Below, piece by piece: positions 50,514 through 56,331 of a stretch of 64,000 nucleotides of DNA. The stretch's first letter is position 1. Every line of letters starts with the position of its first letter. The translations under genes and the position numbers were made by a program. Source of the DNA: Peptostreptococcus faecalis. GTDB taxonomy: Bacteria; Bacillota; Clostridia; Peptostreptococcales; Peptostreptococcaceae. The DNA lies in contig NZ_OERU01000001.1 of NCBI RefSeq assembly GCF_900240845.1, positions 186,001 through 250,000 on the forward strand, read 5' to 3'. The notes beneath the pieces were generated by a model, which saw only the letters and a program-made list of their open reading frames with translations, was not told the DNA's origin and did no database searches.

Positions 50514-51857
50514 TTAATTGCTTTTTACAGCTGCCTTTTCTTTCTTAGCAGTCATACCTTTTAATATAACTAAAACGATTGAAACAGCCAATAATATCCA
50601 ACAGTAATAGTTATTCACTGTTAAACTCATAGTTGAAACATCACTTTGAGTAAGCTTTTTAGCCAATAATATTTGTGCACCATATGGAATTACACCTTGC
50701 ATTACACATGTAGACACACTCAATAAAGTAGCTATTAACGCCTTACTTATATTAAATCTTTCACCTAAAGACTTACCTAAGTTACTAATAGCTAATACTG
50801 ATACTGTATTATTAGCTGTTGCAGCATCAGTCACTAATCCCATACCTAATATTGCAAATAAAGTAGATGTTGCACTTTTTGTTACCTTGCTTATTTTTTC
50901 TTTTAGGTAATCTATACCACCATTTGCTTCAACAAAGTATGCTATACCACCCATAAACATTGTAAGCAAGAATACTTCTGTCATGTTTGCAAAACCATTG
51001 TATATATGTTCACTTAAACTCATTATTGTAATTGACCCTTCAATTAATCCAATAGCTGAACCACATAGTATTCCTATCAACAATACAATAAAAACGTCTA
51101 ATCCAATACTTGATCCTATAATTACAACTAAGTAAGGTATCATATGTACCAAGTTAAAAGACTTGTCTCCAGATATAGCATCTGCTGATATATCAAGTGA
51201 ACCACTGATCATTATATATACTACTGTAGTTATTACAAATGCAATTATAGAGAATACTAAGTTAGCTCTAAACTTATCCTTAGCTGATACTCCTATTGAC
51301 TCCGTTGCTGCAATATTTGTACCTGATATTACTGACAAGTTATCACCTAGCATAGCTCCACCAATTACAGCTGCTACTATCATTGATTCATTTATTCCAG
51401 ATGTTACAGCTAGACCTGATGCAATTGGAGCAACAGATATTATTGTTCCCATTGATGTACCTATCGCCACTGACATAAAACTTGCTATTACAAAGCATCC
51501 AACTACTAAAAATTGTACTGGAATTACTGAAATACCTAAATTTACCATTGAATTTACAGCACCTATATTTTTACAAACTTCATTAAATGCTCCTGCAAGC
51601 AAAAACATTACGCACATTATAAGCACATTTTTTCTACCCATACCTTCTAGGTATTGGCTTACTTGCTCACTATATGGTATTTTTGATTTAAATGTTGTAA
51701 ATATTATTGATATAATAATTGCTGCAATTGTTATTACAACTGGATTAATTGCTCCAAATGGATTATCATTTCCTGTTACAGATAATAATAAACCTATCCC
51801 TAAAAAACCTATTATAAATATTATAAAGGGCGCTAACGCCATTTTTTCCTTCTTCAT
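50514..51857 (-). CDS. NhaC-family antiporter/transporter
   Basis: A 447-residue membrane protein with about 11-12 hydrophobic segments. The family is indicated by conserved stretches such as SVAIGTSMGTIISVAPIA, GAMLGDNLSVISGTNIAATESIG and GLVTDAATANNTVSVLAI. NhaC-family members exchange Na+ or H+, often with an organic solute (malate/lactate antiporters, and the predicted methionine transporter MetT). Its place at the end of an operon with a MetE-like enzyme suggests it moves a substrate or product of that pathway rather than only sodium. Confidence 0.85.
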   Translation of the reverse strand: MKKEKMALAPFIIFIIGFLGIGLLLSVTGNDNPFGAINPVVITIAAIIISIIFTTFKSKIPYSEQVSQYLEGMGRKNVLIMCVMFLLAGAFNEVCKNIGAVNSMVNLGISVIPVQFLVVGCFVIASFMSVAIGTSMGTIISVAPIASGLAVTSGINESMIVAAVIGGAMLGDNLSVISGTNIAATESIGVSAKDKFRANLVFSIIAFVITTVVYIMISGSLDISADAISGDKSFNLVHMIPYLVVIIGSSIGLDVFIVLLIGILCGSAIGLIEGSITIMSLSEHIYNGFANMTEVFLLTMFMGGIAYFVEANGGIDYLKEKISKVTKSATSTLFAILGMGLVTDAATANNTVSVLAISNLGKSLGERFNISKALIATLLSVSTCVMQGVIPYGAQILLAKKLTQSDVSTMSLTVNNYYCWILLAVSIVLVILKGMTAKKEKAAVKSN

Positions 51858-51864
51858 TTGACAC

Positions 51865-52326
51865 CTATCCTAACGATTTGAATTTTAAATTAAATTTAAT
51901 TGAATTTTTGGTACTATTGTATAGAACTGACTGCTTTAATCCATTCGTACAATATTCTTCTATATTTTCTATTTCATCAAGGTCATCTATATACAAAGTT
52001 GCCTCAATTTCATTTATTCTTACCTCTTCATCACAACCTACTACTCCAAGATATGATAATGGATTGGATAATATAAAATCAAATTTTCCTTCTATATCAT
52101 ATATATAGTTACCATTCTTTTTATCATAACTTAAGATAGAAAAAATAATTGATGTTCCTAAAGCTATATTAAAATGATCCAAACTAGTAAGTTCTTCATT
52201 TTTTATGTCGAAACTAAGTTCACTTGTTACATTTAAAGAAAGGTAGTTAGAAAATATTTTTATTCCTTCCTTCCCTTTTGTAACCATTCTATAATCATAT
52301 TTGTATAGTCTGCTTTCTTCAATCAT
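51865..52326 (-). CDS. OsmC-like protein (divergent)
   Basis: A 153-residue protein whose layout (an N-terminal beta region, a hydrophobic helix LGTSIIFSILSYDKK, and a C-terminal EEYCTNGLKQSV segment) resembles the OsmC/YhfA family. In OsmC proteins two cysteines reduce peroxides; here a Cys is kept in EEYCTNG but the first catalytic Cys of the central helix is replaced (SIIFS), so peroxidase activity is doubtful. Its ATG overlaps the stop codon of the MetE-like gene by one base (TAATG), indicating translational coupling. Family call is moderate. Confidence 0.6.
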   Translation of the reverse strand: MIEESRLYKYDYRMVTKGKEGIKIFSNYLSLNVTSELSFDIKNEELTSLDHFNIALGTSIIFSILSYDKKNGNYIYDIEGKFDFILSNPLSYLGVVGCDEEVRINEIEATLYIDDLDEIENIEEYCTNGLKQSVLYNSTKNSIKFNLKFKSLG

Positions 52327-54407: not shown

Positions 54408-54495
54408 TTTCTATTCTCCTTCTAGTTATGTTTTTTTATAATATTTTTTAGTTATTTTATAATTTCTATAAAATTCATTTATTTTATCTTAGATA

Positions 54496-55617
54496 TTATC
54501 TAAATATATCTATATATGGTAGATCAACTAGTAATCTTCCTAACCAAATTCTTAAAACGTCAATTCCTGGTGCCATTATCTGACCAGCATATGCATCTCT
54601 CATTAGTCTTTCCATTGGAAGATTATGTCTAACATATCCCTTACCACCGAATAATCTCATTCCTTCTGTAGCATTTTCTAATACTGCTTTTGTTGAGTTA
54701 ACTCTAGCTGCAATTATGTGGTTGAATGAATCAGAATCTTTATCTATACCAGATTGAGCGGCAGCATAAATTGTTTCTCTTGCAGCATATGCTCTAGTGT
54801 ACATATCAGCTAAATGCGTCTGTACAGTTTCAATGTTAGCTAAATTTGATGCATGAGAATATGTTCTGCTCTTAACATATTCAGCACTTGCATCTACCAT
54901 ATGCATTGCTAATCCAGCACAAACAGAAGAAAGTCCAACTACGAATATTTCTCTGTCTCCATCTCCATTACCTACCATTTTGTAGTAGTTATCTATTTTT
55001 ATGTTGTCAAGAACCATTGGCTTAGATTCATTTCCTCTCATACCAACTCCGTCCCATACATCTTCTTTAAAAGAAAGTCCTTCAGAGTTTGCAGGAACTA
55101 CCCAAACATTTGCTGTATCCTCTTCAACATTCTTAGCTAAAGTTAGGTAATAATCAGCCTGTCCTGCAGCTGTTACCATACTCTTAGTTCCACTTAATAT
55201 TGAATAATCGCCTTTATTTTCTTCTGTCATTTCTGGTATATAGAAATGTGTTCCAGTTCCAGTTTCACTATAAGCTAGTCCTAGTGTAATTTCTCCAGCA
55301 GCAATTTTAGGAAGTAAATCCTTCTTTAATTCTTCAGAAGCATACATAGAAATAGTTCTAACTCCAACGTTGTGCATCATATAGCATAATGCTGAAGAAG
55401 CACAGCTTTCTGAAAGACCTATACAAACTTCTGCATGTTCTACAATATCTTTACCCTGTCCACCAAATTCTTCTGGAACTACTAATCCCATATATCCGTT
55501 TTCTCTTAAAGCATTATATGCTTCTACTGGGAATCTTCCCTGTACATCGATGTCTTTAGTAAATGGCTTTAAATGTTTCTCACCAAACGCTTTTGCGTCT
55601 TCATAATATTTTCTCAT
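54496..55617 (-). CDS. Acyl-CoA dehydrogenase-fold flavoprotein, atypical active site
   Basis: A 373-residue protein clearly of the acyl-CoA dehydrogenase fold (VVPEEFGGQGKD, SCASSALCYMMH, GTKSMVTAAGQADYYLTLAKN, LFGGKGYV, RLMRDA). The active site departs from the family. The catalytic Glu of the usual YEGT loop is missing (IMAPGIDV), the alternative IVD-type Glu after the conserved Arg is Thr (SRTYSH), and the flavin loop reads SETGTGTHFY instead of TEPxAGSD. No electron-transferring flavoprotein genes are near. It may catalyse a different flavin reaction. First gene of the operon, with its own promoter. Confidence 0.85.
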   Translation of the reverse strand: MRKYYEDAKAFGEKHLKPFTKDIDVQGRFPVEAYNALRENGYMGLVVPEEFGGQGKDIVEHAEVCIGLSESCASSALCYMMHNVGVRTISMYASEELKKDLLPKIAAGEITLGLAYSETGTGTHFYIPEMTEENKGDYSILSGTKSMVTAAGQADYYLTLAKNVEEDTANVWVVPANSEGLSFKEDVWDGVGMRGNESKPMVLDNIKIDNYYKMVGNGDGDREIFVVGLSSVCAGLAMHMVDASAEYVKSRTYSHASNLANIETVQTHLADMYTRAYAARETIYAAAQSGIDKDSDSFNHIIAARVNSTKAVLENATEGMRLFGGKGYVRHNLPMERLMRDAYAGQIMAPGIDVLRIWLGRLLVDLPYIDIFR

Positions 55618-56331
55618 TATTCTTCTTATTCCTCCAAAATTACCTTTAATTATTATTTATAATAAAATACTATTTCACAAATATGTAAAACCAGTATTTT
55701 TTATCAATATATAGTTTCTTTATCTTTCACATCCAGAAATCACTCTTTATTTTTTTATAATGCAATTTCTTTTTATACCAGCGTTTTTATTTATTAAAAT
55801 TATCTAAATCTTATTTTTTTAAACTTTTTCAATCCACAAACCATAATACGCTCTTTCTTTTACCTTGTCAATATATCGAGAAAACGTTTTGCTAAAATAC
55901 ATGCAGATACTATATATTGATTTTAAATTTTATTTTTAAATATAAAAAATATTTTTATTTACTAATCACACATAAATTATATTATAAATTTACTATATTC
56001 ATGATATTGTATATAGTTATAATCTATACATACTTTTTCTTTATGTTTTGCAATTTCAGTATTCTTATAATCATTACTTATTCTGCAATATTTTTTTTAA
56101 TAATTTAAACTTATTTTTCAAATATTTCTTGTTTAAAGTCAAAATTACTAGATATGGAGGTGTTTTTCATGATAAATTCATCATTTTCTTTTAAAAAATA
56201 AATATAAAATTATAAACTTTCTATATTAAGTGACTATCATATAGAAAATAACTATATTTATTTAAAAAAACTTACTCAATTTGATATTTATATTTATATT
56301 TAATATGTATAGTATTAAATATTTTAAAAAT
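55618..56331. other. Long AT-rich non-coding region
   Basis: About 700 bp. It holds the promoter at 55843-55871 and a leader of about 215 nt with an imperfect hairpin (AAAATACT...AGTATTTT, about 55664-55702). Further right, an isolated GGAGGTG lies 8 nt before an ATG at 56169 that opens only a 10-codon frame (to 56201), perhaps a gene remnant. A 63-codon frame at 55917-56108 lacks a ribosome binding site and is not accepted as a gene. Confidence 0.5.
55843..55871 (-). promoter_or_regulatory. Promoter of the five-gene operon
   Basis: TTGACA (55866-55871) and TATTAT (55843-55848) on the minus strand with a 17-bp spacer. No SAM riboswitch or T-box was recognised in the leader that follows. Confidence 0.8.

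Follow-up and report, generated by a model that had tools for sequence, protein, structure and literature searches.

What is the role of five genes that follow one another on the reverse strand, between 50514 and 55617, of a 64,000-nucleotide stretch of Peptostreptococcus faecalis DNA (contig NZ_OERU01000001.1, positions 186,001 to 250,000; hereafter the window)? They encode an acyl-CoA dehydrogenase (ACAD)-fold flavoprotein, a protein with the fold of PhnD-type substrate-binding proteins (SBP), a core methionine synthase (MetE), an OsmC-fold protein and an NhaC-family transporter. A preliminary description had located the five genes, as the open reading frames bear out, and had read them as an operon for passing a methyl group from a small substrate to a thiol. 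We observed that the ACAD-fold, PhnD-fold, core MetE and OsmC-fold genes form a module conserved across several bacterial phyla. The association of this module with selenium genes is well supported, and it is highly probable that the MetE form serves selenium metabolism. More tentatively, with a probability of about 0.4, the module would recover selenium from methylated selenium by demethylation, with the methyl group going to homocysteine and selenide to SelD. The preliminary reading stands in part; it did not recognise that the module is associated with selenium genes, that MetE can be exchanged for other partners, or that two of the proteins are akin to Rv1679 and Rv1680.

A conserved module with a variable partner

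Close matches to the SBP are absent from the 70 other genomes of the window's family, where four weak ones were found (E 4e-17 to 2e-4). In a sample of the class Clostridia, the protein is present at E<=1e-20 in 5 of 391 genomes, namely the window's own and four from one other family. These four relatives keep the window's order, ACAD-SBP-MetE-OsmC, with no NhaC gene in the 19-20 kb fetched. Their identity to the window proteins is 52-56% for the SBP, 53-58% for MetE, 41-45% for the ACAD and 24-28% for OsmC.

A collection of species genomes was then scanned with two peptide patterns from the SBP alignment, a non-exhaustive search that returned 46 loci. Carriers include Facklamia (70% SBP identity), Gemella, Finegoldia, Anaerococcus, Parvimonas, Fenollaria, Ezakiella and Oribacterium, and furthermore Coriobacteriales, Verrucomicrobiales, Armatimonadetes, Acidobacteria, Arcobacter, Helicobacter, Pseudonocardia and others. 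The counts below refer to 54 SBP loci, made up of 44 of these 46, nine from carriers in Campylobacteria and Mycobacteriales, and the window. Left out were L060 and L061, with weak SBP matches, and L107, which is the same gene as L108; L012-L015, on contigs shared with L017, L024, L025 and L052, are not part of the 54. Because GC-rich loci were misread, profiles from four families were rerun on stop-to-stop frames.

The pair of ACAD and SBP is the common core, and the partner varies. MetE is the partner in 29 loci, a ferritin-like protein in 18 and a radical SAM (S-adenosylmethionine) enzyme of the Rv1681 type in 3, with four loci unassigned (L034 has MetE and OsmC on its contig; L030, L031 and L042 run off their contigs). 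None of the 54 loci has two partner types. Partner types were read in 5 of 13 Mycobacteriales and 4 of 23 Campylobacteria carriers, and the counts speak for these only. The ferritin-like partners are named from two members, one with DUF455 over the cut-off and the other with AurF and DUF455 under it. The radical SAM partner of Pseudonocardia L053 matches NF049973 (Rv1681) at 528 bits (cut-off 380) and has relatives in L103 and L104; neither MetE nor OsmC was found in loci of this type.

Of the 29 MetE loci, 28 also have an OsmC-fold gene, the exception (L040) being a contig end, and all four genes occur together in 27 of the 28 further MetE loci, the 28th being cut by a contig end. The transporter behaves differently: NhaC adjoins the module in 1 of 53 other loci (L034, 37% identity), and weak NhaC-like matches in L036 and L038 (33-38 bits) lie several kilobases off. 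The earlier idea of a conserved five-gene unit was therefore given up for NhaC and holds for the other four genes.

In the SBP tree, the MetE type, the ferritin type of Campylobacterota and the radical SAM type each group together, and the MetE clade also includes the four unassigned loci. The other ferritin type is split between two positions, and at one of these L058 forms a long branch. This amounts to six changes of partner label, against a minimum possible of four.

Some variations around the module were seen. Three consecutive ACAD genes precede SBP-MetE-OsmC in Finegoldia (L012, 10466-13873), and two ACAD genes are present in Gemella (L026) and Coriobacteriales (L030/L031). An AhpD/CMD-family protein of 110-120 aa comes after the module in four loci, two of Fenollaria and two of Ezakiella (L023, L024, L029, L052); its resemblance to the arsenosugar-associated peroxidase family TIGR04169 is weak (34 bits, cut-off 120). 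The idea, formed by eye, that the ferritin-like and radical SAM partners carry a TusA-like domain at the N-terminus was dropped; profile comparisons with a YedF and with the OsmC profile gave it no support.

Association with selenium genes

In terms of co-occurrence, selD is above cut-off in 41 of 45 carrier genomes, which are the window's genome, all 25 not labelled as metagenome-assembled genomes (MAGs) and 15 of 19 MAGs. Two of 14 control genomes have selD over the cut-off. Within Clostridia, selD is present in 89 of 391 genomes overall and in 5/5 carriers (p=0.0006, uncorrected for kinship, with four carriers from one family). In 150 Campylobacteria genomes, where the SBP was found in 23 and selD in 114, all 23 carriers have selD (p=0.001, again uncorrected for kinship). 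The selD background in Lactobacillales is 38/148; carriers were not counted in that sample, so no test was drawn.

As for clustering, the fetched flanks of 44 loci include selD in four cases (L034, L040, L041, L058; L040 and L041 are close relatives), compared with 0.30 expected. Loci in which the module neighbours selD, selA or selB belong to Bacilli, Verrucomicrobia, Solirubrobacteraceae and Campylobacterota. One such arrangement, in a single stretch of an Aerococcus MAG (L034/L113), has TrxB, TrxA and two reductase genes (GrdC and GrdD by eye), next MetE, OsmC, more reductase genes, an ACAD on the opposite strand, NhaC, ACAD and SBP, and then SelD, YedF, a small gene, SelB and SelA. One of its reductase genes matches sarcosine reductase GrdG (669 bits, cut-off 780), its YedF matches TIGR03527 (220 bits, cut-off 110), and the small gene is DUF3343-like by eye with no NCBIfam match. 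In Verrucomicrobia (L041) the order is SelA, OsmC-ACAD-SBP-MetE, SelD; in Solirubrobacteraceae (L058), SelD-SelA-SelB-ACAD-SBP-ferritin-like; and in Campylobacterota (L109, G630), SelD-ferritin-like-ACAD-SBP, with SelA-SelB about 5 kb away.

In the window's genome the genes for SelA, SelB and SelD lie together, the last of them with an in-frame TGA, and the organism therefore presumably decodes selenocysteine.

Two further observations were made at such loci. In the Verrucomicrobiales contig L041 a second, distant SBP match (150-1073, 38 bits) adjoins SelA and is possibly a selenium-oxyanion transporter. A Coriobacteriaceae bin with a MetE-type module (L035/G473) has two selD genes side by side.

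The proteins and their operon

Of the five proteins, all but the OsmC-fold one, whose OsmC match stays below it, exceed the Pfam cut-off. The SBP gene (53598..54407, reverse strand) encodes a protein whose predicted model has the type II SBP fold and matches phosphite and phosphonate binders, in line with the preliminary description; the arsenic- and phosphate-binding ArrX and AioX are matched too. Its second-best NCBIfam model is TIGR04553, a putative selenate SBP. The predicted fold starts at residue 2, no secretion signal was recognised and no ABC partner gene lies within the operon, which agrees with the cytoplasmic location proposed earlier.

We compared the ligand residues with those of PtxB by alignment, taking the latter from the part of PMC5700983 available to us. 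Tyr55 of PtxB is retained as Y41 in 54/54 sequences. The STS motif of phosphite binders has become S116 (54/54), Pro, Ala or Gly at position 117 (40, 13 and 1) and Q118 (51/54), preceded by D115 in 54/54. The capping Tyr208 is replaced by Cys205, with His204 as its neighbour, each in 53 of 54 with one gap. A cap made up of a thiol and an imidazole would favour an electrophile of selenium or sulfur over a phosphonate. Since the STS motif is lost, the phosphonate-like ligand of the earlier reading becomes less likely, while folate-free methyl transfer to a thiol stays plausible in view of the MetE residues described below.

Two other ideas on this site were set aside. E157 was considered as a stand-in for the phosphite-binding His of PhnD/PtxB and dropped, as the alignments disagree on that His (one pairs it with H150, a His in 46/54; another places it elsewhere). 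The invariant Y11, W19, Y41 and W57 as an aromatic cage for a selenonium ligand were not used as evidence, because phosphite binders also have aromatic residues at the places of Y41 and W57.

The ACAD-fold flavoprotein (54496..55617, reverse strand) has the N-terminal, middle and C-terminal ACAD Pfam domains, all above cut-off. The catalytic Glu of ACADs stands at the position of MCAD E376 or at that of IVD E254. At the first of these the family has Ala349 in 56/57 (one gap) and at the second Phe225 in 57/57, so that by alignment it is a family without a catalytic Glu at either known position, as had been claimed. A possible parallel for an ACAD-fold flavoenzyme paired with a cytoplasmic SBP-fold protein is DszC with the C-S cleaving DszB of 4S desulfurisation, an O2-dependent pathway. 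DszB is not among the sequence matches of the SBP, which does not exclude kinship.

The best NCBIfam models for the two core proteins are NF049984 (Rv1679, FadE16; 220 bits, cut-off 600) and NF049985 (Rv1680; 216 bits, cut-off 400). These related families are labelled solely by Rv1679, Rv1680 and Rv1681, and no function for this set was found in the available text of the literature searched.

The MetE (52326..53513, reverse strand, its start best placed at the ATG at 53513) consists of the catalytic Meth_synt_2 half alone, without the folate half. The zinc ligands H259, C261, E295 and C358, forming a site that the preliminary description had noted, and the homocysteine-binding S16, E67 and D203 are kept in 29/29 homologues; residues were mapped by alignment and from the accessible part of PMC7857596. 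The MesA-MesD core methionine synthases treated there likewise have this half alone with conserved zinc and homocysteine residues, but their partner genes differ from those of the module. MesX (PF08908) was matched in 0 of 27 carrier genomes, but in no control genome either. The operon MetE falls below the cut-off of every NCBIfam methionine-synthase model that it matches.

The OsmC-fold protein (51865..52326, reverse strand) was recognised from its predicted model, which matches OsmC structures. OsmC/Ohr peroxidases use two catalytic cysteines. In this family Cys is shared by at most 7 of 29 members at any alignment position, and 13 of the 29 have no Cys at all. Lastly, the NhaC protein (50514..51857, reverse strand) is above cut-off for Pfam Na_H_antiporter and reaches 67.9 bits with TIGR00931 (cut-off 370).

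On the control of the operon, a single promoter and a single terminator had been reported before. A promoter-like site, TTGACA-17-TATTAT, lies at 55843..55871 on the reverse strand with 11 of 12 consensus bases, in a scan where sites were overall no more frequent than in shuffled sequence, and an intrinsic terminator was found by sequence scan at 50420..50456 on the same strand. The gap between the ACAD and SBP genes is 88 bp. That between SBP and MetE is 84 bp and holds a strong hairpin (53544..53579, reverse strand; 16 pairs, z -5.0), which may be a terminator-like or mRNA-stability element. Control by a riboswitch or another RNA family was discarded as a candidate: the single Rfam match up to E=1 in 50000-56450, a snoRNA (E 0.89), was taken as chance.

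Directly downstream (46856-49992), past the terminator, are an acyl-CoA dehydratase-type activase (49237..49992) beside a double-cubane-cluster reductase (48031..49185; NF040772, 492 bits, cut-off 350), both on the reverse strand, and then a PatB-type C-S lyase (TIGR04350, 384 bits, cut-off 340). The activase, though beyond the terminator, is possibly related to the operon by function. About 820 bp upstream, on the same strand, are ordinary-looking genes like those of a polar amino-acid ABC transporter (ATPase, permease and lipoprotein SBP, named by eye; 56436-58723).

Methyl-selenium demethylation and its alternatives

Gene content, conservation, residues, and co-occurrence and clustering with selenium genes are direct observations. 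From these we infer a substrate, an ACAD reaction, a role of the OsmC-fold protein and equivalent jobs for the partners. The substrate would be selenium in a methylated form such as methylselenol, methylseleninate or a selenonium, coming from the host or from methylation of selenide by SAM. The SBP-fold protein would retain it in the cytoplasm, perhaps as a selenenyl-sulfide on Cys205, and the flavoprotein would alter its redox state or break the C-Se bond. The core MetE would then pass the methyl group to zinc-bound homocysteine, yielding methionine and selenide for SelD. Elsewhere a ferritin-like protein or a radical SAM enzyme replaces MetE; if such partners remove the methyl group by chemistries of their own, as they might, the exchange would be accounted for. 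Demethylation is the most economical mechanism, and we hold it at somewhat under even odds. It is suggested by the link to selD, by a MetE that lacks the folate half yet retains its zinc and homocysteine sites, and by precedents for the removal of methyl groups from selenium.

These precedents are corrinoid systems. According to the available text of PMC10418091, type I MGC (mlp) clusters are proposed to demethylate methyl-selenium and pass the methyl group to a thiol, possibly ending in methionine; they occur with selenocysteine machinery in 87% of species, often with a double-cubane protein, whose gene is provisionally linked to selenium. The same text states that SAM can methylate selenide without an enzyme, a loss that recycling to methionine would solve. 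A double-cubane protein also adjoins the window operon, beyond its terminator. However, type I MGCs have a corrinoid protein, its activase and Mlp methyltransferases, whereas none of the five window proteins matches such families, and the window module would use a core MetE without corrinoid. The SdmABC system of Methanococcus moves methyl groups from methyl-selenides to tap selenium (PMC11097638, as far as its accessible text goes) and is archaeal and based on corrinoid and coenzyme M, unlike the module.

A broader version of demethylation is possible, though less likely than not: the ACAD and SBP core would hold selenium on Cys205 and hand methyl-selenium to one of several unrelated demethylating partners, namely the core MetE without oxygen, a ferritin-like oxygenase or the radical SAM enzyme.

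Several observations weigh against selenium recovery by demethylation. Four MAG carriers have no selD match over the cut-off, and the 45 carrier genomes are not independent, with many close relatives and all but the window's found by two SBP patterns. In 200 Mycobacteriales genomes, with the SBP in 13 and selD in 139, 11 of the 13 carriers have selD (p=0.18, no enrichment). The two negative ones (G845 and G863; loci L103 and L104) have the ACAD-SBP-radical SAM type, and sulfur may be the target of these Rv1679-Rv1681-type sets instead. The window's genome has selD on the same contig as the operon, some 290 kb away. The SBP is absent in 8/8 other genomes of the genus, while selD is present in 4 of the 5 that were tested for it; the use of selenium is thus possible without the module. 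The operon MetE is moreover the sole Meth_synt_2 protein of the window's genome, which has no MetH match at E<=1e-20, and the MetH cut-off was passed in 0 of 21 MetE-type genomes searched (four have long partial matches, 410-482 bits). MetE might then simply be a methionine synthase, and may make a genuine contribution to methionine supply.

Taken to its end, this last point gives a rival in which the module harbours a fifth folate- and corrinoid-free core methionine synthase family, drawing methyl groups from a sulfur or carbon compound through ACAD and SBP, with the selenium link secondary. The intact zinc and homocysteine residues, the MetH and Meth_synt_2 results and the two Mycobacteriales carriers without selD all fit. 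We consider it unlikely, as 21 of 54 SBP loci have another partner instead of MetE, and the ACAD and SBP core therefore serves something that does not need MetE; sel genes also stand in the same clusters in several phyla. The construction of a selenium-containing small molecule or cofactor would agree equally well with the co-occurrence and clustering with selD. The SBP would bind the selenophosphate of SelD, the flavoprotein and MetE, ferritin-like or radical SAM enzyme would tailor the product and NhaC would export it; the SBP fold family binds phosphite and phosphonates, and tailoring enzymes of unrelated chemistry suit a biosynthetic cluster. Nevertheless, S-(P/A)-Q in place of STS after an invariant Asp does not favour a phospho-anion, the module includes no enzyme for building a carbon skeleton, and the two carriers without selD tell against this reading too, which leaves it rather improbable.

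Detoxification or redox handling of selenium or other oxyanions, such as the reduction of methylseleninate or selenite with MetE disposing of the methyl group, would be in keeping with the matches to ArrX and AioX and with the AhpD-like protein of the Fenollaria and Ezakiella loci. The OsmC-fold protein, however, has no conserved cysteine for peroxide reduction, and we see little chance for this reading. A chance assembly of five genes in one genome, unrelated to selenium, could draw on the absence of close SBP matches from the other family genomes and on the rarity of NhaC, but it is already refuted for the four-gene set by the recurrence in further MetE loci and has virtually no probability left.

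No description of the gene set was found in the open-licence literature as far as its text was available, in agreement with the preliminary description. In the accessible portions of the selenium papers PMC5322559, PMC2432076, PMC5029168 and PMC13188914 neither acyl-CoA (dehydrogenase) nor methionine synthase is mentioned, and the former is also not mentioned in those of PMC9312934 and PMC10418091. The OsmC-like and CMD-like selenoproteins listed in the available part of PMC9312934 are distinct from the module proteins. According to the same part, no high-affinity system for selenium transport had been identified at that time.

The module bears on how selenium-using bacteria acquire selenium and handle methylated selenium, as a concrete and widely distributed gene set for testing. 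It ties the uncharacterised families of the Rv1679, Rv1680 and Rv1681 type to the chemistry of selenium or sulfur and contributes a further lineage of core MetE. If the broader version with its exchangeable partners is correct, no corrinoid-free demethylase of methyl-selenium would precede the MetE form, which would also be a new core methionine synthase family, common in human mucosal anaerobes that meet methylated selenium excreted by the host. These results suggest a previously undescribed route of selenium recovery, many of whose carriers are human-associated.

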